Source: Geobacter sp. DSM 9736
Lineage (GTDB): Bacteria > Desulfobacterota > Desulfuromonadia > Geobacterales > Geobacteraceae
DNA length: 64,000 bases
NCBI RefSeq assembly: GCF_900187405.1
Contig: NZ_LT896716.1
Coordinates: forward strand, 310,001-374,000
Reading direction: 5' to 3'
Shown here: positions 8,635-47,388 of the stretch, in pieces
Position numbering within the stretch: position 1 is the stretch's first letter
Layout: each line of letters opens with the position of its first letter
The notes under the pieces: generated by a model
The model's database searches: none
What the model was told of the DNA's origin: nothing
Seen by the model: only the letters and a program-made list of their open reading frames with translations
Translations under genes and position numbers: made by a program

Positions 8635-9774
8635 CTACCGGCCATCGACTAGTACGTTCCACCCTTTCTGCTGAAGATTGAAGACGTGACTCCGGCCGGT
8701 ATCGGAGGGGGGGCTGTTTCCGGTCAAGTCGAGGGTGCCCCCGCCGGCTCCAAGGGAATCGAGGGTGGCGAGTACGGAATCTACGGCTGCAGTTGTCAGC
8801 CTGTTGTTCTGTGCAAAGACTCTGGTGAGGCCCGTGCACCCGTTGAGGGTCAGGCTCGTCAGCTCGTTGTCGTTGATTACCAGCTCTCCTCCCGTTCCAT
8901 CCACGAACCCGCCTGTGAAATCCGCCGCCGAATACCTGTTGCCGTATGCCCGTACACTCATGATAAGGGGTGAGGCCGTCTTCAGCTCCCCTTCCTGATT
9001 GTCGTTCCATATCCAGAGTTGCCGGAGGACCGGCCACTGGGTCAGATTGTTGTAAAGCCGCGGGTTGGAAATCTGAGGGTTGTCCCTGGTGCAGATATGC
9101 CACATGCGGGCTCCCGTCGAGCCCCAGGTGATTGTGGGATACTGATTCACCGCTGCCCTCAGGTCCTCAAGATTTGTGGAGCCGGAGAGATCCAGTGCCT
9201 GCAGCGGGTTGCCCTCCACGTTCAACCGCACCAGGGCGGGGGTGTTTGCCAGATTTATTGAGGTGAGCGAGCCGTTGAAGATCTCGACGGTCCTGAGGTT
9301 GATGAAATTGCTGAAATCAATCGACGGGATCTTTGAATAGGAGGCGCAGAACAGCTCCAGGAACGGCGCTACCACCGCGAGGCCGCGGACTTCGGACACG
9401 TCCTGCTGGGGGATCTGTCTGATGTCGCTGCTTCCGTCGTCTGAGGCGTCATATCCGACATTTATCCCGCTGAGGGCGCTCCAGGGGGTGACCACGAGGG
9501 TATGGGTGCGGGTTGCGGCCGAGCCGAAGTCTTTGACGGGTGTAGGGGAGTCGCTGGTGGTGCCGTCACTCCAGGTCCAGCTGACAACCCCTCCTTCTTT
9601 TACCGACAGTACGGGGGCAAATGAGGCACCTGTCGTAGTGAAGGTAATGGGGCCGTCAGGGTCGGTATCTACGCTGCTCAAGGTGCTGCCGCCGTTGCCG
9701 CCTCCTCCTCCGCAGCCGAAGATGGCCAGGAATGATACTGCCGATAACAGGACGAGTGCTGCTCGTAGTTTCAT
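8635..9774 (-). CDS. Secreted lipoprotein with PKD-like and leucine-rich-repeat-like regions
   Basis: This protein has 379 residues. A signal peptide ends in the lipobox AIFGCGGGGG, so it should be a lipidated outer-surface or periplasmic protein. Residues about 40-110 look like a PKD/Ig-type beta domain (VVSWTWSDGTTSDS). Residues 120-370 have irregular leucine-rich repeats such as LVRLNVEGNPLQALDLSGS and LVINDNELTSLTLNGC. LRR surface proteins of this kind usually bind ligands or partner proteins; no catalytic motif is seen. GGAGGATCGACA before the ATG at 9774 is a good ribosome-binding site. It stands alone, separated from both neighbours. Confidence 0.75.
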   Translation of the reverse strand: MKLRAALVLLSAVSFLAIFGCGGGGGNGGSTLSSVDTDPDGPITFTTTGASFAPVLSVKEGGVVSWTWSDGTTSDSPTPVKDFGSAATRTHTLVVTPWSALSGINVGYDASDDGSSDIRQIPQQDVSEVRGLAVVAPFLELFCASYSKIPSIDFSNFINLRTVEIFNGSLTSINLANTPALVRLNVEGNPLQALDLSGSTNLEDLRAAVNQYPTITWGSTGARMWHICTRDNPQISNPRLYNNLTQWPVLRQLWIWNDNQEGELKTASPLIMSVRAYGNRYSAADFTGGFVDGTGGELVINDNELTSLTLNGCTGLTRVFAQNNRLTTAAVDSVLATLDSLGAGGGTLDLTGNSPPSDTGRSHVFNLQQKGWNVLVDGR

Positions 9775-10083
9775 TGTCGATCCTCCGTGTTGGCGCGGAA
9801 CCCCCCGGCAATAGCAGGAGAATCCCGCAAATGATCCGGCGCGGCATGAATGGCTGCGTCCGGTCGGGCGTTAGTGAGATTAGGAGCTGTCGGACCGGGC
9901 CCCGCCGGGAGGGATAATTATGGCGTGACGGTGCCGTGGCTTCGAGGCCTGTCCGGAGTGCTGTGATTATCTACGTTAATACTATTTAACATATAAAACT
10001 TTTTCCGCAATGAGAGGGGGACGGGCGCGAGCGATGGGTGGGAAAAACCATTCCTCGATTTCGGCGTGCTGATTCCGCGTGGC
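9775..10083. other. Intergenic region upstream of the LRR lipoprotein
   Basis: About 310 bases. The part nearest the gene is GC-rich. An AT-rich patch at about 9970-10005 (TTAATACTATTTAACATATAA) is the best candidate promoter zone for the leftward lipoprotein gene, but I cannot pick a definite -35/-10 pair. No open frame here looks real. Confidence 0.35.
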
Positions 10084-10515
10084 TCACTTCTGGGGAAGCC
10101 TCACCACGGAGAACCAGTAGTCTTCGATGCTTCTGATGATCCTGTACATTTCCTCAAGCCCCATCGGTTTTGTGATGTAGCAACTGGCATGGGATGAGTA
10201 GGAAAGGGCCACATCTGCCTCCGATTCGGATGTGGTCAGTATGATAACGGGGATGACCTTCAGGTCGTCATCATTCTTGATCTCCGAGAGCACCTGGCGC
10301 CCGTCCTTTTTCGGCATGTTCAGATCGAGCATTATCAGGTCTGGGCGCGGAGCCTCGGCGAATCTTCCGTTGCGGCGAAGAAACTCGACAGCTTCCACCC
10401 CGTCTCCAACGGTTGAGAGGTTTATCCGGTAGCGGCTTTCCGCAAAGGCTTCCTGCATCAGAAAAGCATCGGCCTCGTTGTCTTCAACCAGCAGAATGTC
10501 AAAGGACTTGCTCAT
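10084..10515 (-). CDS. Single-domain response regulator (CheY/Rcp1-like)
   Basis: This protein of 143 residues is a lone receiver domain. The acidic pair is in LLVEDNEADAF, the phospho-acceptor is Asp64 in LIMLDLNMPKKDG, and the signalling lysine is Lys116 in ITKPMG. There is no output domain. The form resembles Rcp1-type regulators encoded beside PAS/phytochrome-like kinases. Its ATG at 10515 overlaps the stop of the upstream kinase (ATGA), with GAGGAGA before it, so the two are a translationally coupled cognate pair. The open frame extends upstream to 10581, but that part is the kinase gene in another frame. Confidence 0.88.
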   Translation of the reverse strand: MSKSFDILLVEDNEADAFLMQEAFAESRYRINLSTVGDGVEAVEFLRRNGRFAEAPRPDLIMLDLNMPKKDGRQVLSEIKNDDDLKVIPVIILTTSESEADVALSYSSHASCYITKPMGLEEMYRIIRSIEDYWFSVVRLPQK

Positions 10516-12926
10516 GGTCGTATCTCCTCGGGAAGGGTGAACCAGAAGGTCGAGCCTTCGCCCGGCGTCGATTCCACCCATATTCTTCCTCCGTGCGATT
10601 CCACGATCTTGCGGCAGATGGCGAGCCCCATGCCGGTGCCCGGATACCGGGACCGGGGATTAAGCCGCTGGAACATGACGAAGATCTGATCGAAGTACTG
10701 GGACTCGATGCCGATGCCGTTGTCGTGGACCCCGAACAGCCATTCGTGCTGTAATCGGCTGACGGAAATGTGGACAGAGGGCCGGACATCCTTCCGTCTG
10801 AAGCTCAGGGCATTCTCCACGAGGTTCCGGATCAGTTGCACGAGCTGTCCCATGTCGCCGGTGATGCGGGGCAGTGCGTCCATGGTAATGACAGCTCCAA
10901 TTTCATCCAGTCGCTGCTTTACCCCTTCGAGGGCCTTTTCGGCTACCTCTTTCATTGAAACCGGAGCCGGGTTCCACGTTGGGGAGCCAAGTTCGAAAAA
11001 GGCGAGAATATCGTTCACCAGGGCTGAGATGCGATTGGCTCCCTCCACCGCGAATCCGATGTACCTGTCCGCTTTCTCGTCCAGGAGCCCCCGGTATTTC
11101 AGGGCAAGAAGCTCCACGTAGCGCGTCACGTTACGCAACGGTTCCTGGAGGTCGTGAGACGCCACATAGGCGAACTGCTGGAGTTCCCGGTTGGAGCGCT
11201 CCAGGGCGGCTATTGTGTAGCGCAGCCTTCGCTCGACCTGTTTCCGCTCAGTTATGTTGTGGACGATCTTGGAGGCCCCGATGATGTTGCCCCTGGCATC
11301 GGTGATGGGGGAGAGGGTAAGCTCTACTGGAACTGTCGTGCCGTCTTTACGCAGGCGCACCGTCTCAAAGCGGTCCTGGATTCCTTCCCGCATTTTTCTC
11401 ACCATTTCCAGCCCCTCCTGTTCAAGGCCGGGGGGGAAGAGCATCGAAACGTGCCTACCGAGTGTTTCTTCCGCCGGATACCCGTAAAGTCTTTCGGCCC
11501 CCTTGTTCCAGGTCTGTATGATGCCGTTCAGGTCTTCGCTGAAGATGGCGTCTTCGGCGCTGTCGACGATGGCGGCAAGCCTTCCCATGGCTTCCTCAGT
11601 ACGTTTCTGCTCGGTGATGTCGCGGAAGAAGATCGCCATGCCGTCGGCATACGGGCGGATATGTACCTCGAAGAGCTTTTTTTCCTGCTGATATGAGTAG
11701 TATTCGTGGAAGCTCGCCGGCTCCTTCGTCTGCATCGCCCGCCGGTATTCCTCCTCTATCCAGGAGCCTGAAGATTCGGGACGTTTTTCCCAGTAGGTTT
11801 GTCCCAGCATGTCGCGAGCTCGCATCCCGGTAAGCTCCTCGGCCCTTCGATTGAAATAGGTTATCCTCCACTGCCGGTCCAGAGCGATGAAGCCGTCGCT
11901 CATGCTGTCCAGGATGCTCTCTATCCTTTCCAGTGCTAATTTAAGATCATGTATGTCGGTGGACGTGCCATACCACTTTATGATCTCCCCAAGTCTTGAG
12001 CGGAGCGGAACGCTCCGGCAGAGATGCCACCGGTAGTCGCCGTCGTGCCGCCTGATCCTGTGCTCGACTTCGTACTGATCCCCTGTTTCGACCGAATGCA
12101 GCCATTTCTCTTCCGTAGCCATCCGGTCCTCGGGATGGATCCCGGCGAGTATCGCAATGTTGTCGTGCTCTTTCAGACCAACATAATTCTCAAAGGTGCG
12201 GTTGATGAAGTCGACGGCGCCGTTGGCCGTAGCCGTCCATACCAGGTTCGGCAGGAGGTCGGCGATCATCCTGAATCGCCGCTCGCTTTCGCGCAGCTCT
12301 TCTTCCGCCTGCTTCCGTTCCGTGATGTCGATGTTGATGCCGATGATCCTGAGGGGAGGGCTCCGGTTCTCCATCTCAACATAGGCTTGCCCCCTGGACG
12401 CCAGCCAGCGAACGGTTCCATCCGGCATCGGTACACGGTATTCGAGCTGGAAGGTGCTGCCGGATGCAGGGTCGCAAGCCTGCCGCGTAGCATTCTCGAT
12501 GAGGTGCCGGTCTTCGGGGTGGATGAGCTTAAGCACCTCCTCATACGTCGTGCGGCCGTCTGCCGGAACCCCGAACAGGGCCAGCGAATTCTCGTCCCAG
12601 GCCACTGTGCGGGAAGCTGTGTCCATGTCGAATGTTCCCATCCGTGCGGCATTAAGCGCCAGCTGGAGCTTCTTCGAATGGTAGCGCGCCTCTTCTTCGG
12701 CCCGCTTCGCTCTCCGCGCGTACCCCAGCATCAGCGGATAGAGAAGCAGCGCGGAGAAAAGGATGAAAAGAATCCCCTTGTATACCGAGATGAGGAACCT
12801 GAGGTCGTGCTCGGCCACCAGCGCGGCGAGGACTCGGTCGGAAGTGTAGATCCAGAGCGTACCGAAGATAAGGTAGGCGACGATGATGCGCAGAAGGCTT
12901 GTGTGCTCGGACCTGGAGAGCTTCAT
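10512..12926 (-). CDS. Multi-PAS membrane sensor histidine kinase
   Basis: This kinase has 804 residues. Two membrane helices (about residues 12-32 and 45-68) are followed by four PAS domains ending in the usual ITERKQ-like tails (IDITERKQAEEEL, RDITEQKRTEEAM, HNITERKQVERRL). HisKA comes next with VASHDLQEPLRNVTRY (about residue 592), then an ATPase domain with NLVENALSF, DNGIGIESQ and GTGMGLAICRK. The four PAS modules suggest integration of several signals such as redox, ligands or light. It is coupled to the receiver gene at 10084-10515. GGAG lies nine bases before the ATG at 12926. Confidence 0.88.
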   Translation of the reverse strand: MKLSRSEHTSLLRIIVAYLIFGTLWIYTSDRVLAALVAEHDLRFLISVYKGILFILFSALLLYPLMLGYARRAKRAEEEARYHSKKLQLALNAARMGTFDMDTASRTVAWDENSLALFGVPADGRTTYEEVLKLIHPEDRHLIENATRQACDPASGSTFQLEYRVPMPDGTVRWLASRGQAYVEMENRSPPLRIIGINIDITERKQAEEELRESERRFRMIADLLPNLVWTATANGAVDFINRTFENYVGLKEHDNIAILAGIHPEDRMATEEKWLHSVETGDQYEVEHRIRRHDGDYRWHLCRSVPLRSRLGEIIKWYGTSTDIHDLKLALERIESILDSMSDGFIALDRQWRITYFNRRAEELTGMRARDMLGQTYWEKRPESSGSWIEEEYRRAMQTKEPASFHEYYSYQQEKKLFEVHIRPYADGMAIFFRDITEQKRTEEAMGRLAAIVDSAEDAIFSEDLNGIIQTWNKGAERLYGYPAEETLGRHVSMLFPPGLEQEGLEMVRKMREGIQDRFETVRLRKDGTTVPVELTLSPITDARGNIIGASKIVHNITERKQVERRLRYTIAALERSNRELQQFAYVASHDLQEPLRNVTRYVELLALKYRGLLDEKADRYIGFAVEGANRISALVNDILAFFELGSPTWNPAPVSMKEVAEKALEGVKQRLDEIGAVITMDALPRITGDMGQLVQLIRNLVENALSFRRKDVRPSVHISVSRLQHEWLFGVHDNGIGIESQYFDQIFVMFQRLNPRSRYPGTGMGLAICRKIVESHGGRIWVESTPGEGSTFWFTLPEEIRP

Positions 12927-15791: not shown

Positions 15792-18700
15792 CTAGCGGAT
15801 TATGATGTTGCTGATGAGCGCGGTACCGCCGGCTATCGTCAGCGAGCCGTTAATGGTAGTGAATCCGATGTCGGTGAGGAAAGAGCCGTCTTTCCCCCCT
15901 TCCAGAACGGTAGTTATCGGCTTGTCCAGTACGATATCTTCATGGAAGGTGGAGGCCTGCAGCCTGATGGTGCTGTCGTTACCCAGGGCGTTGTAGGCGG
16001 ACTGCAGGGTGGAATATCTCTGCATCGTTTCCGCCACCGATACAGTCTCTTTCCGGACGAAGGCCGCACTTACGTTTCTGGCTGCGCCCATTGAAACGGT
16101 GCAGGTTCCAGTGCCGCTGCAGTCCCCGCTCCACCCGGCAAAGTCCGCGTCCCATGAGGGCACGGCCTGGAGGCTGACGGTGGCGGTATCGCTGAACGAA
16201 GCACTGCACCCGGCGGAGGACCCGCTGATACAGGCTATGCCTGCCGGGTTGCTGTCGACCCGCCCAGTACCGGTGCCGCTTGGCGTGACGTTCAGTGTGT
16301 CGTACCGCACCGGCGTGACGCTGTCGGAGGGGCTGGAGGGCTGGCTGCTTCCGGCGGCGTTGGTTGCCGTGACGGTGAATGTGTAGGAGGTACCGTTGCT
16401 AAGGCCTGTGACGGTGATGGGGCTGCCTGTCCCGGTTGCGGTAATGTTCCCCGGTGCGGCGGTGACCGTGTAGCCGGTGATGGTGCTGCCTCCGTCGTCA
16501 GACGGTGCGGTGAAGGAGACGGTCGCGGTCTGGTTGCCTGCAGTTGCGGAGCTGATCTGTGGGGGGGGCGGAGGGACGATGGCGGCGAATGTGGCGCTCA
16601 CGCTGTGGTCTGATGTAATCGGGCCGAAGGAATGGGTGAATGATGTCCGCTCCGAGACAGTTCGAGGGACCCCATCTACAGTAACTGCAGCCAGGAAGTT
16701 CCCGGAGCCGGGAATGGCGGTGCAGGCTGCGGGAGTGCTGTAGGTGACCAGAGTCCACGGGGTGCAGGTAATCGTGCCGTTGCCGCTTGTTGCCGTGCCG
16801 ATGGTGAATGTCAGGGGGGTGAAGGAGAAGTTGACGTAACAGTCCGCGGAAATGGTCCCGGTGGTGTAGCTGTTGCCGGTGAAGCTTCCCGCCGGGCAGG
16901 TGCCGCCGACGTCGCCCGGTTTGTGTCCTGCCGCCGGGCTGACCGCGAAGGTGGCCGAGGTGCCGCTGGTTACGGTGACCGGGCTGGCCGACGCAATGCT
17001 TCCGTTGGACCCGGTGACGGTTCCGGTCACCGTATATGTGGCGGTGCTCCTCACTCCCGAAAGGGCGAAATCATCGATCTGCCAGTACCAGTCGTATCTG
17101 GCGTTGTAGTAGCGGAACCTGACGGCCACATACTGCCTTCCGGCCGCCAGTGCGGATATATCGAGCTTTTCGGCGGAAGGTCCGTGATCGGCTCCGCTCT
17201 TTCTCCAGACGTTGTTCCAGGTCGCCCCGCCATCGGTGCTAAGATCCACATCGCAGATCTCGTCGCTGTAGTACCGGAAATATGTACGGAAGCTCAGGTA
17301 GGCCTTGGTGAAGCTGGTGAGGTCGTAGATCGGGGACTTCAGGACTGTATCCATGGTGACGCGTCCGGCGTAGTCGCTGTCGACCACGGCAAAGCCGCCG
17401 CTGCCACCGGTCTGGTTTCCCCGACGGGCGGGGTCGTCGAAGCGCCACCCGGCAGATGTGCCGGAGACGGTCCACGCGGCAGGACTAGCGCCGCTTGAAA
17501 AGGATTCTGAGCCGACGGACGTGGTGGCGATGAATTCCGCCTGGACGGTCTTGCTGCCATTCATGGTGAATGTACAGGTGGATGCTGTGCCGCTGCAGGC
17601 TCCCGACCAGCCGGCGAAGGCGGAGCTGCCGGCAGGCGTTGCCGTAAGGGTGACGGTGGTGCCTTCGGGCACCGAAGCGGTACAGGACGTTCCGCAGTAT
17701 ATCCCCATGGACCCGCTCACCGTGCCGCTTCCCGCACCGGTTTTCGTAACAGTGAGGGGATGGCCCGTTACATTGCCCAGGATGCTTGCGGCGGTATCGA
17801 CCTCTATTCTTCGCTTCACCAGACCGTTTCGGATATCGGTGATGCTGGTCCCCGAGTTGAGAAGCGCCGTGAGGATCTCGTCCACGGTGGCGGCGGGCTT
17901 TACCGACTTGAGGATGGCCCAGGCTCCGGCGACATGCGGGGTGGCCATGGATGTGCCGTCCCATGACGCATATCCGCTCCCGGGAACGGATGAACTTATG
18001 GCGGACCCCGGTGCCAGTAGAGTGAGGATCGAGGCGCTGTTGGAGTAGGATGCCACATAATCCGACTTGGTGGTCGCCCCGACACTGATGGCTGTGGAGA
18101 TACATGCCGGGGCAGAGATGCTGGCTGCATACCCCTCGTTGCCGGAGGCGATCACCGTGGCGATCCCCGCTGCGCGCAGGTTGTCGACGGCCGCCTTGAG
18201 GGAAGCCTGAGAAGCGTCGCAATAGCTCCCGTAGGAGCCGCCTCCAAGGCTCATGTTCACCGACGATATGCTGTAGGTGCCGCGGAGGCTGTAAACGTAC
18301 TGAAGAGCGCTGATCTGGTCGGACGTGTACGACATGACGCAGGGCCCTGTTGCGCCGACGCCGCAGGCGGAAACGGGGAACTGTGAGAAGACCTGCACGG
18401 CAACTATGCCCGCGTCCTTTGCCACACCGCTGAAGGTCGGGCCTTTGCCTGCGGCGATACCTGCAACGTGGGTCCCATGGTCGCAACCCTCCACAGCTGA
18501 GCTGCAGTTGGCGCCCGAGCCCGGAGCCGTAGATCCCCTGGTGCAGACCGCCGTGGACCCGTCCGGGGTATACGTGGTGGAATAGCATGCTTCGGCGACC
18601 ACTTTCCCGGAGAGGAAAGGGTGGTTCTTGTCGACGCCGGTGTCGAGGATTGCCACTACCTGGCCGGTGCCGGTGTATCCATTGAACATTCCGCCGGCGT

Positions 18701-37103: not shown

Positions 37104-37166
37104 TTTCAACCAAGCGCTAGACCGGCCCAGAAACAAAGTCGGCCGGTCAGCTCTCAGCCGTTGTAG
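37104..37166 (+). repeat. attC site 1
   Basis: The left box TTTCAAC (37104-37110) pairs with GTTG in the right box GTTGTAG (37160-37166). The inner stem is GACCGGCC with GGCCGGTC around a 13-base loop. The right box departs from GTTRRRY. Confidence 0.6.
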
Positions 37167-37184: not shown

Positions 37185-37970
37185 GTGTCATCAATACATG
37201 ATGCCGGCTTCCTCTCAGAGGAAATAAAGGAATGGATTCAGAAACACAGGAAGGAAAACGAAAAGTGGTTTTCCTTAAGCGAGAGATGCAGCAAGCTCGG
37301 CCAGGAAGTCCTCCTTTCCATCAAGGTTAACAACAACGATCTTCAAAAGATTTTGGTATCTCTTTGGTTTAACAGGCTATTGAGCCATTTCCAGGCAATT
37401 GTGCTGCTCATGGAAAGAGGAATGCTATATGAAGCACAAATATTACTTCGAACTTTGGTAGAAGTATCTTTTTCGTTAGTTTCAGTTGCCGAGAATCCAG
37501 ACATTGCACAGGATTTTCTAAAGGACGACAAAGTACAGCAATTAAAGGCATTGAACACCTACATGAACCTGCCAAAAAATCTACGAGTCCAAGACGAACA
37601 GCAGGAAGCCGGGATAAGGAAGCTGATCGATGACCTCAAATGCGAAATATGCAAAAACAAATACAAGGAACTTAAAACAGAATTCATCGCGCAAAAAGCC
37701 AAAATGTCGGATTACTACAACACGATATATGCAAGTTTATGCAGCACAGTTCACAGCAGAATCCGAGACCTTGAATCACACCTTCTTCTAAATCAGGACA
37801 ATGACATCGAACAATTGAATTGGGGGCCTGATGTTTCAGGCCTTGACATGGTGCTTCTGGCAGCCAATGAAACTTTTATAGTATCTACAAAAAGAGTTTT
37901 ACAACTATTTGATCTTCAAGAAATTGCAGAAGAGTTTAATGCGTGTGGTGCTGAATTCGACGATATGTGA
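37185..37970 (+). CDS. Cassette gene: DUF5677-like hypothetical protein
   Basis: 261 residues from GTG 37185, with AGGAAA about eight bases upstream. It is all-helical. The segment HFQAIVLLMERGMLYEAQILLRTLVEV and the later YYNTIYASLCSTVHSRI match the pattern of DUF5677-type proteins, in which an R..LE helix and a Y...S..VH helix form the core (recognised from memory, moderate certainty). Such proteins are frequent in mobile and defence regions, but the biochemical role is unknown. The gene ends six bases before its attC site. Confidence 0.6.
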   Translation: MSSIHDAGFLSEEIKEWIQKHRKENEKWFSLSERCSKLGQEVLLSIKVNNNDLQKILVSLWFNRLLSHFQAIVLLMERGMLYEAQILLRTLVEVSFSLVSVAENPDIAQDFLKDDKVQQLKALNTYMNLPKNLRVQDEQQEAGIRKLIDDLKCEICKNKYKELKTEFIAQKAKMSDYYNTIYASLCSTVHSRIRDLESHLLLNQDNDIEQLNWGPDVSGLDMVLLAANETFIVSTKRVLQLFDLQEIAEEFNACGAEFDDM

Positions 37971-37977
37971 GTCGAAG

Positions 37978-38052
37978 CTACAACCAGGCCCTTGGACACC
38001 GACCGGGGCTGAGAAGCGCCCCGGTGCGGGTCAAGGGCGCAAGCCGTTGGGT
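37978..38052 (+). repeat. attC site 2
   Basis: The clearest attC in the array. The right box GTTGGGT (38046-38052) fits GTTRRRY perfectly and pairs with ...CAAC at 37981-37984. The stem CCCTTG-G-AC...ACCGGGGC with GCCCCGGT...GTCAAGGG leaves a G unpaired, as expected for an extrahelical base. Confidence 0.75.
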
Positions 38053-38806: not shown

Positions 38807-38874
38807 CCCCAACTTTCGGCTAGACCAGACCGCCCCCAGAACCTGGCGGACTTGTCAGCCTCATGCTGTTGAAC
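38807..38874 (+). repeat. attC site 3
   Basis: The left box CCCCAAC (38807-38813) and the right box GTTGAAC (38868-38874, perfect GTTRRRY) enclose GGCTAGACCAGACCGCC. This pairs with GGCGGACTTGTCAGCC, leaving single unpaired bases. The left arm is identical to that of the attC at 42033. Confidence 0.75.
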
Positions 38875-39996: not shown

Positions 39997-40061
39997 TTCC
40001 AACGAGGCCAGTAGACCCGGTCGAGACAAGGCCGCGCCGGGTCTCCGCCCGACCGTTGGCA
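39997..40061 (+). repeat. attC site 4
   Basis: The left box TTCCAAC (39997-40003) and right box GTTGGCA (40055-40061) enclose AGACCCGG pairing with CCGGGTCT. The right box deviates at one position from GTTRRRY. The RAYT element begins 22 bases after it. Confidence 0.65.
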
Positions 40062-40082
40062 GAGATGACAACCGTCCGTGTT

Positions 40083-41008
40083 GGGTCGGACCACGGCAAG
40101 TATTTGAATTTTTGAGGATTTGCGTGTGAATTGCCCTGCATATCGGCCTTAGAAGTACATTTTTACCCCCGAAAACGAGCCTCTAAGCATGGCACGAGCG
40201 AACCGTCATTACATTCCCGGGCAGGTATGGCACATCACGCATCGGTGCCATAAAAAGGAGTTCCTGCTGAAATTCGCCAAAGACAGGCGCCGGTGGCAGT
40301 CCTGGCTCTTCGAGGCGAAGAAACGCTTCGGCCTGCGAGTCCTCAATTATGCAGTCACGTCCAATCACATCCATCTGCTGGTGATAGACAGCGCGCCGGA
40401 AGTCATTCCCAACAGCATCCAGCTTATTGCCGGAAGAACTGCCCAGGAGTTCAACCAACGCAAGGAACGCAAAGGCGCATTCTGGGAGGATCGTTATCAT
40501 GCAACGGCGGTAGAACGGAACGAGCACCTTATTCGCTGCCTCGTCTACATCGATCTGAACATGGTCCGTGCAGGAGTCGTGAAGCATCCATCCGAATGGG
40601 AAAACGGCGGTTACAACGAAATCCAGAACCCGCGTGAGCGCTATAGCGTGATTGATCAGCAGGGGCTGCGGGAGTTCTGCGGCATCCCTGATTCCGAGCA
40701 GGTTGCAGATCACCACCGCAAGTGGGTCGAGGACGCACTGGTAAGTGGTCGGCCTCAACGGGAGAGTCTCTGGAGCGAGAGCATCGCTGTCGGCAGCAGC
40801 GGATATGTGGAGGAGATAAAGGCTCGTCTGGGAATAAGGGCGGTAGGGAGAATGATACAAGAGGATACAAGTGAAGTATGTTTCCTGCGAGAAGAGCCAG
40901 CGCCTTACAATGCCGATTTCACCCCCGAAAATGCGCTTCTAAGACCTGAAAATAGCTTCTATTGGCAGGAATTCTGAATCAATTCAGCATTTTGATTTGG
41001 TCCGACCC
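40083..41008 (+). mobile_element. RAYT element copy 1 (REP-associated tyrosine transposase)
   Basis: A 926-bp unit bounded by the inverted repeat GGGTCGGACCA (40083-40093) and TGGTCCGACCC (40998-41008). An almost identical unit lies at 45827-46753. Outside the left repeat both copies share GTCCGTGTT, making a GTCCG/CGGAC hairpin. A direct repeat (CCCCCGAAAA...TCTAAG) occurs both just before the transposase start and near its end. It is inserted in the cassette that followed attC site 4. Confidence 0.75.
40189..40977 (+). CDS. REP-associated tyrosine (Y1-type) transposase
   Basis: 262 residues. RHYIPGQVWHITHRCHKKEF at the N-terminus and NHIHLLVIDSAPEVI with the HIH (HUH-type) metal motif identify the IS200/REP-associated transposase family. 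RCLVYIDLNMVRAGVVKHP contains the likely catalytic tyrosine. These enzymes process single-stranded hairpins and can mobilise REP-type palindromes. The C-terminus (SGYVEEIKARLGIRAVGRM) matches the extension typical of environmental RAYTs. This copy is intact, while the copy at 45934 has a nonsense mutation. No good ribosome-binding site is seen upstream, which would keep expression low. Confidence 0.88.
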   Translation: MARANRHYIPGQVWHITHRCHKKEFLLKFAKDRRRWQSWLFEAKKRFGLRVLNYAVTSNHIHLLVIDSAPEVIPNSIQLIAGRTAQEFNQRKERKGAFWEDRYHATAVERNEHLIRCLVYIDLNMVRAGVVKHPSEWENGGYNEIQNPRERYSVIDQQGLREFCGIPDSEQVADHHRKWVEDALVSGRPQRESLWSESIAVGSSGYVEEIKARLGIRAVGRMIQEDTSEVCFLREEPAPYNADFTPENALLRPENSFYWQEF

Positions 41009-41525
41009 CGGGATCCGGGATCCTCAAGCACCATCAGAGAACGGCATAAGAAAGTCAGGCACACACTGGATCGGTGAAGATGGCCAACTTAGGCGGCCAG
41101 GTGGCTTCTTTCTTGACAAATACCTGAAGCGGGTAGGTTACAGCGTTAACCCGGAGATTAAAATATTTGCCAGACCATACACAACAAATGTTCTCCATTG
41201 CTGGACCGGACGGCGGAACGGGAGAAGAGACCGCCAACCTACCGCTGCTGAACTACAAAATTGTAAGCCATGGTGGCACAAAGAAATTGAATTCATCAGA
41301 CCAAGGGTGGTTATCCTCCTTGGAAAGCCAGCAGCTGAATCTTTCAGCGCAGTCTGTGGAGACGATAGACCATTCAAGGATCTAATAGTAGCCCAAGGGG
41401 AATGGATGCAGTTTGGCGACACCAGCATAAAACGTTACGTCCTTCCCCATCCGACGGCGCCTTATCCTGAAAAATCTGCAATCTACAGTACTGTTTTCAA
41501 GCTTGTATCTGTCGACTTGAAGTAG
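40962..41525 (+). pseudogene. 5'-truncated uracil-DNA glycosylase (family 4-like) cassette gene
   Basis: The open frame starts inside the transposase end; the native part begins about 41009. It contains the UDG core after the active-site motif: IGEDGQLRRPGGFFLDKYL, YTTNVLHCWTGRRNG, AELQNCKPWWHKEIEFIRP, VVILLGKPAAESF and VLPHPTAPYP. The N-terminal GEAPG-type active-site motif and about 50 residues before it are missing. They are not upstream of the transposon either, where only an ATG (40065) and two codons precede the insertion. I infer that the RAYT insertion removed or replaced them. Intact UDGs excise uracil from DNA; this remnant is unlikely to be active. Confidence 0.65.
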
Positions 41526-41529
41526 ACAA

Positions 41530-41592
41530 GCTCAACCCGCGACGGCACACGGTCTTCGCTACGCTACGCGGGTGCGCCTTGAGACGTTGGCA
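41530..41592 (+). repeat. attC site 5
   Basis: The left box GCTCAAC (41530-41536) fits RYYYAAC exactly. The right box is GTTGGCA (41586-41592). The stem CTCAA-CCCGCG pairs with CGCGGG...TTGAG. Confidence 0.7.
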
Positions 41593-42032: not shown

Positions 42033-42102
42033 TGCCAACTCGCGGCTAGACCAGACCGCCCGGAAGAACTGGGCGGGCTGGTCAGCCTTTCGGCCGTTGG
42101 CC
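42033..42102 (+). repeat. attC site 6
   Basis: The left box TGCCAAC (42033-42039) and right box GTTGGCC (42096-42102) enclose GGCTAGACCAGACCGCCC. This pairs with GGGCGGGCTGGTCAGCC with one unpaired A. It shares its left arm with attC site 3. Confidence 0.7.
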
Positions 42103-42120
42103 TACAGAAGGAGAATTATT

Positions 42121-44313
42121 ATGGCAGATCACATAAATTACTCATCAGATGCGCCAATATCTACGCCAGATAAGGATAGATTCTCACGATGGCCCTTTTC
42201 CAAGCGAATATCGGAGGTCATTGCTAACAGGACTGATCCAAGTAGCATCGTTATCGGACTTTATGGGGCTTGGGGTGATGGAAAAACTACAGTATTGAAC
42301 TTCATTGAAGAAGCATTAAAAACTGAATCAAATGTTATATGTATCAGATTTAATCCTTGGCGATATGGCACAGAAGAACAATTACTTGAAGGATTTTTTC
42401 ATAACATTGCAGATGCTCTTGATACAAAGCTGATAACTTCTGGAGAAAAGTTAAAAGACATTGTCAAAAAGGTTGCGCCGGCAGCTGCCGGCGCATTTGG
42501 GCAAAAAGGTGTTGGTGATGGTGTAGCTCAATTTATGACTGGTCCGTCCTTAAGCGAATTAAGGTCTAGAATAGAAACCGCATTGGAAGAAGCAAAAAAG
42601 AGAGTTGTGATATTAGCTGATGACATCGACCGGCTGGAAAAAGAAGAAATTCATGCAACGTTCAGGCTAGTAAAGCTGACCGCAGACTTTAAATATACTT
42701 CCTACATACTGGCGTTTGACGAACAAGTGGTTTCATCTGCATTGCAAGATAGATATGGTGCAGGGGCTGAGAATGCAGGTAAAGCGTTCCTAGAAAAGAT
42801 TATTCAGGTGCCACTAAACTTACCTTCTGTGGATCGGAAAGTATTAAGAGGATTTTGTTTTGAAGGTGTAGACAATGCGCTCGCTATAGCTGAAATCAAG
42901 CTAACAGATCAGCAGGTTCAGGAATTTGTCAGAGATTTCACACTCGCTTTTGATAAAAGGCTAAAAACTCCGAGAATCGCTAGGATGTATGGCAACATCT
43001 TAATGTTCTCATTGCCAATTCTTAAAGGAGAAACAAATCCGGTAGATGTCATGTTAATAGAAGGTGTGAGAGTGTTTTTCCCTAAACTTTACGAGGTCAT
43101 AAAAAAAGATGCGGGGATGTTCACCGGTAGCGTAAGGGACTCTTATGGTAACCGAGATAAAGAGAAATCACACACTATTTCTACCATTGAAAAAGCAATA
43201 AACTCATCGGACCCAGAAGAGGTAGACGGAATATTAAGTTTATTAAAATCAATCTTTCCAAAACTTGAAGCAGTGTACGGAAACACACACTATGGAAGTG
43301 ATTGGGAAAAAAGCTGGTCGGAGGCTCAGAGGATATGCTCTTCGGCATATTTCCAAAGATATTTCACTTATGCTATTCCTGAGGACGATATCCCAGACCA
43401 GACAATACAACTTCTTATCGAAGTTTCATCAAAGGAAGATCTCGCTGAAACCGCTAAACTACTAGACGAATTATTGACAACTCAAAATGCAGATCGGCTC
43501 ATAAGAAAACTACGCTCACGCGCCAAATCACTATCACGAGAGTCATCGATGACATTGGCAGGAGTTCTTCTGCTCTATTCTGGTAGATGTCCTAACCCAG
43601 AAAACTTATTCAACTTCAACAATCCATTTGCTCAAGCGGCAATGCTTGTTAGTGACCTAATTCAAAACATTTCAGAAAAAAGTGAAAAAATATCTTTTTC
43701 TCAGCTTTGTATTAAAAATGCGCCAGACCTTGAATTCTCTGTCGAGATTTGCCGATGGCTACGAGTAAAAGATAAAGATCGGCCTGAAATTGACGGCTTT
43801 ACAGAAGACGAAATAAATGCAATTGGGACTATCTTAGCCGAGCGTATTAAATCAGCTTTAGAAGGTGATGTAGATATCACTACAGACTACCCTAAAACAT
43901 GTGGCAATTTGTTGTATCAGATCAAAAAATACATTGGTAAATCAGGCGTAGAAGACTATCTTGTCAGCTTTTTCAAAACTCGCAAACAGTCTGTTTTCAG
44001 GTTTTTAGACACATTCGTTCCTACCGCATGGGGAGTGGAATCTGGAATATCGCATAAATCTGACCTAGAAAGAGAACAGTACAATGCCATAGTTGGTCTA
44101 GTTGATCCTGAAATCATCCTCTCCGCAATAACACAGGAAATTGGCCAACTGCCTGCCGTTGCAAAAGAATATCCAAGAGACGATAACGATAGAAACCTAT
44201 TGCTTACCAACCAATTTCTTTGGCTGCACAACTATGTCCTTCAGGAACAGGCTAAATCAGAGGAGGGCAAAGGCCAACAAGCGGCGGCAGACGGACAAGC
44301 CGCTGCGCCTTGA
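42121..44313 (+). CDS. Cassette gene: KAP-family P-loop NTPase
   Basis: 730 residues from ATG 42121, preceded by AGAAGGAGAA; the frame from 42097 lacks a signal and overlaps attC. Walker A is GAWGDGKTT (about 50-58), followed by FNPWRYGTEEQLLEGFFHNI, a hallmark of KAP NTPases. Walker B is VVILADDIDRL (about 161-171). The sensor region is YILAFDEQVV and the KTPRIARMYGN helix follows. The remaining 400 residues are helical and unassigned. No membrane segment interrupts the fold, so it is a soluble type. KAP NTPases recur in defence regions and plasmids, and some act in phage defence. At 2.2 kb this is large for a cassette. Its 3' end forms part of the next attC. Confidence 0.8.
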   Translation: MADHINYSSDAPISTPDKDRFSRWPFSKRISEVIANRTDPSSIVIGLYGAWGDGKTTVLNFIEEALKTESNVICIRFNPWRYGTEEQLLEGFFHNIADALDTKLITSGEKLKDIVKKVAPAAAGAFGQKGVGDGVAQFMTGPSLSELRSRIETALEEAKKRVVILADDIDRLEKEEIHATFRLVKLTADFKYTSYILAFDEQVVSSALQDRYGAGAENAGKAFLEKIIQVPLNLPSVDRKVLRGFCFEGVDNALAIAEIKLTDQQVQEFVRDFTLAFDKRLKTPRIARMYGNILMFSLPILKGETNPVDVMLIEGVRVFFPKLYEVIKKDAGMFTGSVRDSYGNRDKEKSHTISTIEKAINSSDPEEVDGILSLLKSIFPKLEAVYGNTHYGSDWEKSWSEAQRICSSAYFQRYFTYAIPEDDIPDQTIQLLIEVSSKEDLAETAKLLDELLTTQNADRLIRKLRSRAKSLSRESSMTLAGVLLLYSGRCPNPENLFNFNNPFAQAAMLVSDLIQNISEKSEKISFSQLCIKNAPDLEFSVEICRWLRVKDKDRPEIDGFTEDEINAIGTILAERIKSALEGDVDITTDYPKTCGNLLYQIKKYIGKSGVEDYLVSFFKTRKQSVFRFLDTFVPTAWGVESGISHKSDLEREQYNAIVGLVDPEIILSAITQEIGQLPAVAKEYPRDDNDRNLLLTNQFLWLHNYVLQEQAKSEEGKGQQAAADGQAAAP

Positions 44314-44323
44314 GACGTTATGC
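44272..44323 (+). repeat. attC site 7, overlapping the KAP gene 3' end
   Basis: The left box GGCCAAC (44272-44278) lies within the gene's last codons. AAGCGGC pairs with GCCGCT, and the right box is GTTATGC (44317-44323, one deviation). The attC therefore encodes the Ala/Gln-rich tail GQQAAADGQAAAP. Confidence 0.55.
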
Positions 44324-44348
44324 AGAAGAAAGAAGACGAGAGTGATAC

Positions 44349-45197
44349 ATGAAATTTGAGGAAAAATTCATTGCCTTCGTTGATGTACTTGGCTTCAAGA
44401 GCATGGTCGAAGCGTCAGAAGCTGGAACTGGCATGACATTGCCAGAAATCGTCGAATGCCTTTCAAAGCTGGGGACACGAGAGGATGAGGATAAAATCCT
44501 CCGTCGTGGAGCAACGATCTGCCCAGGAAGTATGTGCATCGAAAAGAACCTCAATTTCAGAATTACCCAAATTTCAGACTGCGTTATTGTTTCATCAGAA
44601 GTTTCACCTGCTGGACTTATTAACCTTGTAAGCCACTGCTGGGGCGCTGTTATCGAGTTGCTCGTACGTGGGATTATGTGCCGCGGGTATATCACAAGGG
44701 GGGCAATATATCACCAAGACGGCCAGGTTATCGGAAGTGGCTATCAGAGGGCATACGCCCGTGAGGCTGGCGTATGTGCTTTTAAGCTTGAAGCAGACGA
44801 GCGCGGAACTCCATTTGTTGAAATTGATGAAGAGGTGTGCCGTTTTGTAGATGAAGAAACAGACTCATGTGTTAAGGAAATGTTCTCACGAATGGTAAAA
44901 ACAGAAGACGGGACAACTGCTTTGTTTCCCTTCAAACGGCTTTCACATTCATTTATTATTGCCGGATTCGGCAGAACGTTCGATGCTGAAAAAGAAAAAG
45001 AAGCAAATAACAATGTCAGGAAGCAATTATTGGCCTTAAAGGAAAGGGTCATGTACTACGTAGACCATACTAATACTAGAGCGGTAGCGAAGGCGAAGCA
45101 CTATCTGCGTGCCCTTGACGAACAACTCACTGTTTGTGACATGACTGATGATATGATAAGCAAACTCTGTGCTCCACTGCCATTGAGGCGATTATAG
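44349..45197 (+). CDS. Cassette gene: class III nucleotide-cyclase-like protein
   Basis: 282 residues. The order of motifs resembles a class III cyclase catalytic core. FIAFVDVLGFKSM (residues 7-19) sits where the first metal-binding FxDIxGF strand belongs. QISDCVIVSSE (about 75-85) takes the place of the GD-containing hairpin. RGIMCRGYITRGAIYH (about 107-121) matches the R..GI..G region. The C-terminal half is helical. Proteins of this FVDVLGF type are common but uncharacterised, and some residues expected of active cyclases differ, so activity is unproven. It lies next to the KAP NTPase cassette. The ribosome-binding site AAGAAGACGAGAG is weak. Confidence 0.6.
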   Translation: MKFEEKFIAFVDVLGFKSMVEASEAGTGMTLPEIVECLSKLGTREDEDKILRRGATICPGSMCIEKNLNFRITQISDCVIVSSEVSPAGLINLVSHCWGAVIELLVRGIMCRGYITRGAIYHQDGQVIGSGYQRAYAREAGVCAFKLEADERGTPFVEIDEEVCRFVDEETDSCVKEMFSRMVKTEDGTTALFPFKRLSHSFIIAGFGRTFDAEKEKEANNNVRKQLLALKERVMYYVDHTNTRAVAKAKHYLRALDEQLTVCDMTDDMISKLCAPLPLRRL

Positions 45198-45208
45198 AGA
45201 GCGCTGAT

Positions 45209-45259
45209 GCATAACACTCGGGTGCTGCCGGCAAGCGGCAGACCCTCAAGCCGTTGGGC
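45209..45259 (+). repeat. attC site 8
   Basis: The left box GCATAAC (45209-45215) and right box GTTGGGC (45253-45259, perfect) enclose GGGT-G-CTGCC. This pairs with GGCAGACCC, with one extrahelical G. Confidence 0.7.
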
Positions 45260-45288
45260 AAGGAACATTAAGAACAAAGGAAGAAGAT

Positions 45289-45780
45289 ATGGCTGATACT
45301 ATTGAGAAGTACACCGAGAAAATGAAAAACATCTGCAAACAGCTACTTTCTCTCGACACTGATCTTGTGGAGGCGCTGATGCATGGTGACCCATTTGATA
45401 AGCTGATTAGGAACATGAGCACAAGAAATTCCGAAGGCGAAATTTTTTACAACCACAAAAGAATGTTAAACCACTATCCAAGATCAAGTAGAGCCAATGA
45501 TATTGTTAATAACAATTCTTTGACAGATAATGAGAAAATAAAACTATTATATCTTGAGCATGACTTTCCATTAGGCCTTATAAAGTCAGAGCTGAAACAA
45601 GGCTTAAAAAAGAAGAGCAATGATGAATTGTTTGAAATTGTCGAAAAATCTTTGGCAGTCACTTTAGTTACAAAAGAAGAGAGGCGTGAAATTGACTCTA
45701 AGTATAAATCAACAATGCCAGAAAACGGTCAGAATCGTTATGAGGCAACCAATATTACATTGATGACAAAGGGTTTGTAG
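45289..45780 (+). CDS. Cassette gene: hypothetical helical protein
   Basis: 163 residues from an ATG preceded by AAAGGAAGAAGAT. The sequence is charged and helical throughout (YTEKMKNICKQLLSLDTDLV; LIKSELKQGLKKKSNDELF; TKEERREIDSKYKS), with no cysteine pairs, membrane helix or catalytic motif. No family recognised. Its attC is not clear; the following 46 bases contain GTTGGGT (45813-45819) and then the second RAYT element, which may have interrupted it. Confidence 0.6.
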   Translation: MADTIEKYTEKMKNICKQLLSLDTDLVEALMHGDPFDKLIRNMSTRNSEGEIFYNHKRMLNHYPRSSRANDIVNNNSLTDNEKIKLLYLEHDFPLGLIKSELKQGLKKKSNDELFEIVEKSLAVTLVTKEERREIDSKYKSTMPENGQNRYEATNITLMTKGL

Positions 45781-45826
45781 CAGGCAAGCTGTTGCGGTGA
45801 ATGTGGAAATGGGTTGGGTCCGTGTT

Positions 45827-46753
45827 GGGTCGGACCACGGCAAGTATTTGAAATTTTGAGGGTATGCCTGTGAATTGACCCTGTATATCGGCCTTAGAAG
45901 TACATTTTTACCCCCGAAAACGAGCCTCTAAGCATGGCACGAGCGAACCGTCATTACATTCCCGGGCAGGTATGGCACATCACGCATCGGTGCCATAAAA
46001 AGGAGTTCCTGCTGAAATTTGCCAAAGACAGGCGCCGGTGGCAGTCCTGGCTCTTCGAGGCGAAGAAACGCTTCGGCCTGCGAGTCCTCAATTATGCAGT
46101 CACGTCCAATCACATCCATCTGCTGGTGATAGACAGCGCGCCGGAAGTCATTCCCAACAGCATCCAGCTTATTGCCGGAAGAACTGCCCAGGAGTTCAAC
46201 CAACGCAAGGAACGCAAAGGCGCATTCTGGGAGGATCGTTATCATGCAACGGCGGTAGAACGGAACGAGCACCTTATTCGCTGCCTCGTCTACATCGATC
46301 TGAACATGGTCCGTGCAGGAGTCGTGAAGCATCCATCCGAATGGGAAAACGGCGGTTACAACTAAATCCAGAACCCGCGTGAGCGCTATAGCGTGATTGA
46401 TCAGCAGGGGCTGCGGGAGTTCTGCGGCATCCCTGATTCCGAGCAGGTTGCAGATCACCACCGCAAGTGGGTCGAGGACGCACTGGTAAGTGGTCGGCCT
46501 CAACGGGAGAGTCTCTGGAGCGAGAGCATCGCTGTCGGCAGCAGCGGATATGTGGAGGAGATAAAGGCTCGTCTGGGAATAAGGGCGGTAGGGAGAATGA
46601 TACAAGAGGATACAAGTGAAGTATGTTTCCTGCGAGAAGAGCCAGCGCCTTACAATGCCGATTTCACCCCCGAAAATGCGCTTCTAAGACCTGAAAATAG
46701 CTTCTATTGGCAGGAATTCTGAATCAATTCAGCATTTTGATTTGGTCCGACCC
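45827..46753 (+). mobile_element. RAYT element copy 2
   Basis: A 927-bp unit with the same terminal inverted repeats as copy 1 (GGGTCGGACCA, 45827-45837; TGGTCCGACCC, 46743-46753). Almost base-identical to copy 1, with small differences mainly in the left 100 bases, so one is a recent duplicate. A hairpin GGTCCG-TGTTGGGT-CGGACC lies at its left end. Confidence 0.75.
45934..46722 (+). pseudogene. RAYT transposase copy 2, interrupted by a nonsense mutation
   Basis: The sequence matches the intact transposase at 40189-40977 until codon 144, where GAA is TAA (46363-46365), leaving a 143-residue N-terminal piece. The remaining frame continues from about 46393 to 46722. The truncated piece keeps the HIH metal motif and the YIDLNM tyrosine region but loses the C-terminal extension. 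Confidence 0.85.
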
Positions 46754-46793
46754 TGGGATCTATCCAGATGGCGACGGAATGGGCGAAAAGACA

Positions 46794-47186
46794 TCAATTA
46801 CCAAAAAGAGAAATTCTGGAATGCTCTCTTATTACTTCGAAATGACCATCAAGGGAAAAAAGTTGGGCACCTGCTTCGATTGCTGCCACAGCAATATAAC
46901 AATCAGCCAGACCGACAGTTATTCCTTTCCGGCGCAAGGTGTAGGCCATCTGGCCGGCTTTCTCCCATAACGAGGGCGATTCAGGAAGAAATTGAAAGAC
47001 ATGAACAAAATCCCTGATGACCGATAGCTCTCGCTCGGACTTGGCTCCTTGCATTAACTCTCCGAGGATCAGTCCAATACAGCAGACACTATCCGAGTCA
47101 AGGAGATCAACAACGGCACCATGAACAGGTTGCTGTTTTCTGAAAAAATCGATCCAGACAGAGGTGTCGATGAGAACCTTAGCCAA
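46794..47186 (-). CDS. vapC: VapC-type PIN-domain ribonuclease toxin
   Basis: 130 residues from TTG 47186, which has GGAG about nine bases upstream and overlaps the antitoxin's 3' end; the frame extends to 47228 but that part lies within vapB. PIN-domain acids are visible: Asp in VLIDTSVWIDFF, Glu in LILGELMQGA, and Asp in GLADCYIAVAA and LDGHFEVI. VapC toxins cut tRNA or rRNA. It is the only gene pair in the array that faces left. The region to its right to about 47600 carries a weak attC-like hairpin. Confidence 0.85.
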   Translation of the reverse strand: MAKVLIDTSVWIDFFRKQQPVHGAVVDLLDSDSVCCIGLILGELMQGAKSERELSVIRDFVHVFQFLPESPSLWEKAGQMAYTLRRKGITVGLADCYIAVAAIEAGAQLFSLDGHFEVIREHSRISLFGN

Positions 47187-47388
47187 GACGGTTGTCTCCG
47201 TGTCGTAGCTTGTCTGCTTCGACGACAAACTCCAGCTTACCAGCTAAGGATTTGATCCGTTCCAGTTTTCGCAGCCTGATTTCGTCTCTTATAGCGGTAA
47301 TTACGGCTTCGGTTTTGCTGCGTGCATTAACAAGAGACATCAGTTCGGTCAGAAGATCTTGTGGAAGCGTTATGGTAGTTCGCGCCAT
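47179..47388 (-). CDS. vapB: VapB-type ribbon-helix-helix antitoxin
   Basis: 69 residues. MARTTITLPQDLLTELMSLV and SKTEAVITAIRDEI form the ribbon-helix-helix DNA-binding fold. The C-terminus (LAGKLEFVVEADKLRHGD) is the toxin-binding tail. GGAGAAATGTC precedes the ATG. It should bind VapC and repress its own operon from the AT-rich region at about 47400-47450. It overlaps vapC by eight bases. Confidence 0.85.
   Translation of the reverse strand: MARTTITLPQDLLTELMSLVNARSKTEAVITAIRDEIRLRKLERIKSLAGKLEFVVEADKLRHGDNRLG

Follow-up and report, generated by a model that had tools for sequence, protein, structure and literature searches.

We analysed a stretch of 64,000 nucleotides (the window; bases 310001-374000 of the single-contig, 3.96-Mb genome of Geobacter sp. 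DSM 9736), in which three consecutive open reading frames (ORFs), all on the + strand, encode a P-loop NTPase of the KAP family (hereafter KAP), a protein with a predicted class III cyclase fold (CYC) and a small ORF product (HEL). Our preferred reading, to which we give a probability of about 0.7, is that these genes belong to a cluster of attC sites without integrase (CALIN) carrying two independently mobile one-gene cassettes, for a PifA-like KAP and a non-canonical CYC, together with a degraded HEL cassette, and that they do not make up a single system. The first-pass annotation had described three consecutive cassettes, each with its own attC, that could be independent or form a new combined anti-phage system; taken as a whole, its observation is partly confirmed and its interpretation partly supported. 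The interesting part of the locus is the CYC family, which is unnamed, cassette-borne and endowed with an incomplete canonical site, and not the trio.

Cassette boundaries of the KAP and CYC genes

An integron cassette begins with a TTRRRY core half and ends with an attC site whose first arm complements that start. The KAP gene (42121-44313, +, 730 aa) lies in a cassette of 2,221 bp (42097-44317, +), whose start TTGGCC matches the attC arm GGCCAAC at 44272, and the last codons of the gene fall within its own attC (44273-44323, -). The CYC gene (44349-45197, +, 282 aa) lies in a cassette of 936 bp (44318-45253, +), whose start TTATGC matches the attC arm GCATAAC at 45209, the attC itself extending from 45210 to 45259 (-). 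The core of KAP is GTTGGCC at 42096, within an attC that belongs to the previous cassette (42034-42102, -), that of CYC is GTTATGC at 44317, and the next core stands at 45253. Since each start has its own matching arm followed by the next core, KAP and CYC are two separate cassettes, that is, separate mobile units of one gene each. A covariance model (R1), built from four other attC sites of the window (37105, 38808, 41531 and 42034), supports both sites, neither of which was used in its training: in a 2.8-kb scan it scored the attC of KAP at 23.3 bits (E 5.3e-5) and that of CYC at 17.7 bits (E 0.0014), and the training site preceding KAP reaches 74.6 bits.

The signature of start, arm and core arose by chance in 53 of 20,000 random placements, and the single-stranded attC of CYC folds better than most shuffled sequences (z -2.3). 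Weighing against our reading, the attC DNA of KAP folds no better than its shuffles (z -0.8). The signature also has a history that limits its use. With the strict core GTTRRRY it was found in none of 29 CYC genes and not in KAP, since neither GTTATGC nor GTTGGCC conforms to that motif, and the core was relaxed to GTTRNNY with a chance count of its own. The pattern was written after the sites of the window and of a Thiomonas locus (L018, see below) had been viewed, so that the independent hits are those in a Planctomycetes bacterium (L008) and in Syntrophus (L014). Besides CYC relatives, the relaxed signature was passed, among the genes tried, by KAP, CYC and the Drt9 gene of the Thiomonas locus only; eight other array genes of the window, HEL, three other genes of a Geobacter sp. 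GAC1 locus (L007) and one other Thiomonas gene failed it, and the test is therefore insensitive.

The array is a CALIN: no integron integrase (TIGR02249) exceeded the 265-bit cut-off in the 3.96-Mb genome (best 88.6 bits), and the integrase gene of a complete integron was thus not found. The two genes that the model did match (L086 and L115) look, from their sequences, like XerD and XerC. The ORF positions bear out the consecutive order on one strand that had been annotated for the NTPase, the cyclase-like protein and the third ORF. The further claim that each carries its own attC holds for KAP and CYC, with exact arm matches and R1 matches, but not for HEL (45289-45780, +, 163 aa, cassette start 45254). 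No R1 match at E <= 5 was found from the HEL stop to 46149, the two weak matches near HEL (E 2.4 and 3.2) lie inside a transposase element, no GCCCAAC arm occurs on the + strand between 36 and 48 kb, and HEL has no detectable attC of its own on its 3' side.

Families of the CYC and KAP proteins

CYC has no significant match in Pfam, NCBIfam or PADLOC, and at E <= 1 the PADLOC cyclase models match neither CYC nor 24 of its relatives. One of 25 family members reaches Pfam PF00211 at E 0.24, the CYC of the window not at all; among solved structures searched by sequence, a first CYC profile found none and a profile of 25 sequences found four at chance level (E 0.24-0.7), with a single cyclase among these. 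The assignment comes from the structure prediction. An AlphaFold2 model based on 25 sequences (pLDDT 85.6, pTM 0.84) gave 23 Foldseek matches in the PDB at E <= 0.001, all of them adenylyl or guanylyl cyclases (best E 4.8e-5), followed by weaker matches to the cytidylate cyclase 8jsf (E 0.021) and to Cas10/mCpol palms (E 0.07-0.35). With VIA-align, Z ranged from 14.2 to 12.3 among the best 50 entries, at an rmsd of about 3 over 145-166 residues and within model residues 1-200. CYC is thus predicted to have a class III cyclase fold, and the motif order of class III cyclases previously noticed in the middle protein is borne out by the fold that its structure prediction returned.

The two metal-binding aspartates of that fold, D12 and D77, are kept in 25 of 25 sequences, an alignment that comprises the window and 24 of the 32 CYC loci (the truncated L015, L016, L017 and L020 were left out, as were L025, L029 and L035, which are close to others, and L038). 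Equally invariant are K17, S76, G113, G118, G129, P155 and K248, and R112, H122, A135 and E139 are kept in 24 of 25. The rest of the canonical set is missing: the transition-state arginine and the base-contact lysine (Lys(-4)) occur in none of the 25 and the transition-state asparagine in five, the Asn/Arg positions of the window CYC being Q133 and A137, whereas six PF00211 control cyclases counted alike have the asparagine and the arginine in 6/6 and the lysine in 4/6 (six of seven loci, L075 being in the wrong frame). The site of CYC therefore resembles that of a cyclase reduced to its metal-binding half, the part needed to stabilise the transition state being absent. Two points tell against this. 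The residue mapping relies on an hhalign alignment of low confidence (probability 1.6%, E 0.03) together with the fold, even though it agrees with the motif order, and a cyclase could still function with a partner supplying the asparagine and arginine; in its own genome there is no PF00211 match that might complement CYC.

One scan of genome contigs yielded 32 CYC loci. The close family consists of nine full-length proteins, that of the window included, with 41-60% identity to the window CYC. The cassette signature, tested on the window and on 28 of the 32 loci (four truncated genes were left out), is present in four of these 29 genes, namely those of the window, the Planctomycetes bacterium (L008), Syntrophus (L014) and Thiomonas (L018), so that 3/28 relatives are separate cassettes, each in another lineage. 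In all four, the attC strand folds better than its shuffled versions (z -2.3, -4.7, -2.5 and -3.1, respectively), and in Planctomycetes bacterium Pla86 several similar attC sites, read by eye, stand in series. The genes next after the CYC cassettes differ between lineages. In Thiomonas sp. FB-6 it is a Drt9 reverse transcriptase cassette (8748-10535; PADLOC E 5.5e-210), which follows CYC immediately and has an attC and an exact signature, and in Syntrophus a pair of small ORFs that presumably resembles HigBA. Also in the Pla86 locus, one cassette gene (L008:10562-12050) is doubled in tandem, its second copy being shorter.

Geobacter sp. GAC1, which belongs to the same family as the host, carries a CYC relative 1.5-2.6 kb ahead of AbiJ_NTD5-TIR and FRG-domain genes that have attC sites around them. 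This relative has a weak upstream attC-like site (E 0.15) with a fold no better than shuffles and no matching arm, and was not counted as a cassette. The AbiJ_NTD5-TIR and FRG-domain genes themselves occupy L007:10321-12341, with attC sites between them. On an Agrobacterium plasmid a CYC relative is located after Dsr1. By tblastn, CYC was found neither in viral contigs nor in phage records; two phage families of unknown function, PHROG 23933 and 21097, match it. In the literature listings searched, neither the CYC family nor a KAP cassette is described in any title or abstract opening; KAP/PifA is absent from the main text of the DefensePredictor paper (PMC13092281), and no class III cyclase figures in the passages of that paper considered here.

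The CYC family resides in defence-rich regions. Neighbouring ORFs, up to 2 kb from a CYC relative, matched 236 PADLOC models at E <= 1e-6 (of 129 such ORFs 108 were scanned, 21 having been left out by eye as probably spurious); BrxC, DpdF, Drt9 and type I restriction are among the matches listed. In comparison, 121 ORFs from 20 random regions of related genomes, all scanned, matched 15. Several findings caution against reading this as a property of CYC itself. Farther out in these loci, the 118 ORFs at a distance of 4.5 kb or more, all of them scanned, still match 161 models, and the enrichment therefore marks the region, not the gene. Moreover, PADLOC models are redundant, one UvrD-type helicase matching 27 of them even at E <= 1e-20, and the random regions come from other taxa than the CYC loci; the comparison therefore indicates defence-rich surroundings rather than CYC as a defence gene. 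Four of ten large or adjacent CYC neighbours scanned singly have no PADLOC match at E <= 1e-20, and two plasmid CYC relatives adjoin metal-resistance or SOS/replication genes. A defence role of CYC by itself is plausible.

KAP belongs to the KAP NTPase family, with a Pfam KAP_NTPase (PF07693) score of 177.8 bits against a cut-off of 20 (E 3.8e-52). The PADLOC PifA model matches residues 6-632 with 259.5 bits, compared with 77 bits for QatA and 52 bits for PDC-S20, so that the similarity to PifA spans most of the protein, and an alignment of five sequences shows no variation at the Walker A and B residues. Among plasmid-borne proteins, the closest full-length relatives are KAP proteins from Xanthomonas citri (36.7% over 97%). 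Searched by sequence, no solved structure matched KAP, and its most hydrophobic 19 residues average 1.29, below a typical membrane helix. Judged by these matches, KAP is a remote PifA-type KAP NTPase and probably has a defence role, in line with the earlier remark that anti-phage systems are known to include large NTPases. Two points count against it: identity to PifA of plasmid F (the P-loop NTPase gene adjoining pifC, which we took as PifA, the record not carrying that name) is just 23%, confined to residues 10-524 (E 1e-28), and fold and profile similarity do not equal function.

Separate cassettes or one system

The three genes are adjacent and in the same orientation, KAP matches a defence family and CYC relatives sit in defence-rich regions, and one could imagine a single defence system in which CYC makes a nucleotide signal on infection, KAP is the effector that it addresses and HEL an accessory. 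We hold this to be highly improbable, since KAP and CYC have separate attC boundaries and the genes do not keep company elsewhere. No KAP or HEL relative turned up in the flanking sequence retrieved (up to 8 kb) for any of the 32 CYC loci, and when both proteins were searched in 38 loci, 32 of them the CYC loci, only the copies of the window matched. KAP-family matches occur in 2 of the 20 CYC-bearing genomes searched (20 of 32), both weak (best E 3e-8). Conversely, neither CYC nor HEL stands beside KAP relatives in 32 loci, some representing one gene twice, with flanks mostly of 1.5 kb and, for four plasmid loci, of up to 6 kb; KAP is beside CYC in none of four CYC plasmid loci. Taken together, in these 36 additional loci, collected through KAP or CYC, KAP matched the KAP loci and CYC the four plasmid loci, and two of the three genes were never present in one locus. 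Nor does CYC have a widespread partner gene in an all-against-all BLAST of 129 neighbour ORFs, the only shared neighbours being those of three Burkholderia-type loci (L022, L025, L029), an ORF pair in L009 and L010, and an AbiJ_NTD5-like pair in L007 and L024. The three-gene neighbourhood proposed by the first-pass annotation was thus sought in 32 CYC loci and 32 KAP-relative loci and found in none, and with HEL lacking any detectable relative the idea of a combined system finds no support. Homologues that never occur with each other or with defence genes had been named as an outcome that would speak against that proposal; in the loci searched, KAP, CYC and HEL homologues are indeed never together, which tells against the combined system, but defence genes do neighbour CYC relatives.

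If the genes are separate, what each of them does is a matter of degree. CYC might be a class III nucleotidyl cyclase of the usual sort with a diverged active site, whether akin to that of Pycsar or a producer of cAMP or cGMP, as the fold (Z 14), the presence of 8jsf among its weaker matches and the two universal aspartates would allow; we think this quite unlikely, given that the arginine and lysine are absent from all 25 sequences and kept in all or most of the control cyclases, that no PADLOC cyclase profile matches any of 25 members and that no recognisable effector is its neighbour. Somewhat less unlikely, in our view, is that CYC and KAP are general accessory cassettes, serving for example stress responses or nucleotide metabolism, without any anti-phage role, their defence neighbours merely reflecting mobile regions. 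The far ORFs of the CYC loci, defence-rich as well, and the relatives beside metal-resistance or replication genes fit that idea, and the PifA profile match of KAP speaks against it, as does the position of CYC relatives near Drt9 in Thiomonas, BrxC (in L015, where CYC is truncated), a DpdF-like gene (L030) and Dsr1 on a plasmid. Under our preferred reading of separate cassettes, the functions that we infer would be as follows. KAP would most likely act like PifA: a single protein that binds ATP and excludes phages by abortive infection, responding to a phage product and then stopping the infected cell. CYC would be a stand-alone protein that binds NTP and metal through its two conserved aspartates. 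Given that conservation does not extend to the canonical lysine, asparagine and arginine, CYC most likely makes no canonical 3',5'-cyclic nucleotide as a homodimer and would use or sense nucleotides in another manner, probably in defence.

It is tempting to go further and to speculate, on grounds that we regard as tentative and with odds clearly against it, that CYC founds a widespread, uncatalogued family of stand-alone, integron-borne defence proteins with a new active site (D12/D77 with K17, R112, H122 and E139), which would make a non-canonical nucleotide or destroy NTPs during infection without a dedicated effector. Were CYC to protect alone, it would represent a one-gene, sub-1-kb, nucleotide-using defence cassette carried by integrons of four or more lineages, and the absence of the catalytic residues would suggest a novel chemistry or sensing for the class III cyclase fold; to our knowledge, neither has yet been described for that fold.

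HEL has no significant match in Pfam, NCBIfam or PADLOC, and no relatives in plasmids, phages, viral contigs, 243 other genomes of the class or 296 others of the phylum (overlapping sets). The earlier description as an unknown helical protein stands as regards the absence of relatives, but its helical character has as its basis one poor single-sequence model (pLDDT 46.7). HEL is probably the ORFan of a degraded cassette stranded by a transposon. A REP-type (Y1) transposase element (copy 2, 45818-46757, +) adjoins the HEL cassette and begins 38 bp past the HEL stop; its reading frame is interrupted by a stop (ORFs 45934-46365 and 46393-46722), and it is 99.0% identical to copy 1 (40071-41012, +), which has an intact ORF of 262 aa (40189-40977; Y1_Tnp E 2.2e-11). 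The two copies flank the KAP/CYC/HEL stretch on both sides. Upstream, the array on the + strand continues with R1 matches at 37105-37166, 38808-38874, 39998-40061 and 41531-41592, the first, second and fourth being training sites, and a weak one at 37979-38052 (E 1.0). Other array genes are one with DUF5677 (37185-37970; PF18928, E 4.3e-32) and one of the uracil-DNA glycosylase superfamily (40962-41525; PF03167, E 1.4e-13), the start of which abuts transposase copy 1. Two small minus-strand ORFs at 46794-47388 carry motifs of what we take to be a VapBC toxin-antitoxin pair. Further attC-like sites are found in the same genome at 16291-17803, 3604501-3606285, 2370040, 3818959, 2603340 and 1842394, and Rfam has no match within the window.

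Comparison with known systems

Pycsar had been suggested as a known precedent for a nucleotide cyclase in anti-phage defence. Like PycC, CYC would have a single cyclase domain with two metal aspartates, and a cytidylate cyclase, 8jsf, is among its weak Foldseek matches. On the other side, CYC has no PycC profile match, its aspartates are 65 residues apart and not 44 as given for PycC (PMC11224242, in the part consulted), its catalytic set is incomplete and it has no adjacent gene for a PycTM- or PycTIR-type effector, KAP and HEL having neither a Pfam cyclic-nucleotide-binding or TIR domain nor a typical membrane-helix stretch. A Pycsar assignment is not supported. With the class III nucleotidyl cyclases of PF00211, CYC shares the predicted fold of residues 1-196, the motif order and the two metal aspartates; in contrast to them, it has no base-contact lysine or transition-state arginine, retains the asparagine in 5/25 members, and has an insertion between the aspartates and C-terminal helices (residues 213-274).

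PifA, by which plasmid F excludes T7, is of similar size to KAP (741 versus 730 aa) and has the same P-loop domain and Walker motifs, its PADLOC model covering residues 6-632 of KAP, and no part of KAP is hydrophobic enough for a typical membrane helix. According to PMC8594841, PifA acts by abortive infection, presumably on sensing T7 proteins, and the range of phages affected there was narrow. The setting differs: pifA is a plasmid gene beside pifC, whereas KAP is a lone gene in an integron cassette. Tmn, another KAP-family system, has unusual membrane domains according to the part of PMC11846954 consulted, unlike KAP.

The presence of phage defence genes in integron cassettes is established, as set out in the relevant part of a review (PMC12409362) that reports the work of Darracq et al. 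and Kieffer et al. 2025, and the first-pass suggestion that cassette arrays carry such genes fits this literature. The same part of the review calls the defence genes in cassettes size-reduced, and the 2.2-kb KAP cassette is notable for that reason. With it, a KAP NTPase of the PifA type, in a cassette of unusual length, joins the candidate cassette-borne defence genes. Like the cassettes in that review, those of KAP and CYC hold one putative defence gene each with an attC; unlike them, they stand in an array without integrase, in a relative of Geobacter, and include one as long as that of KAP.

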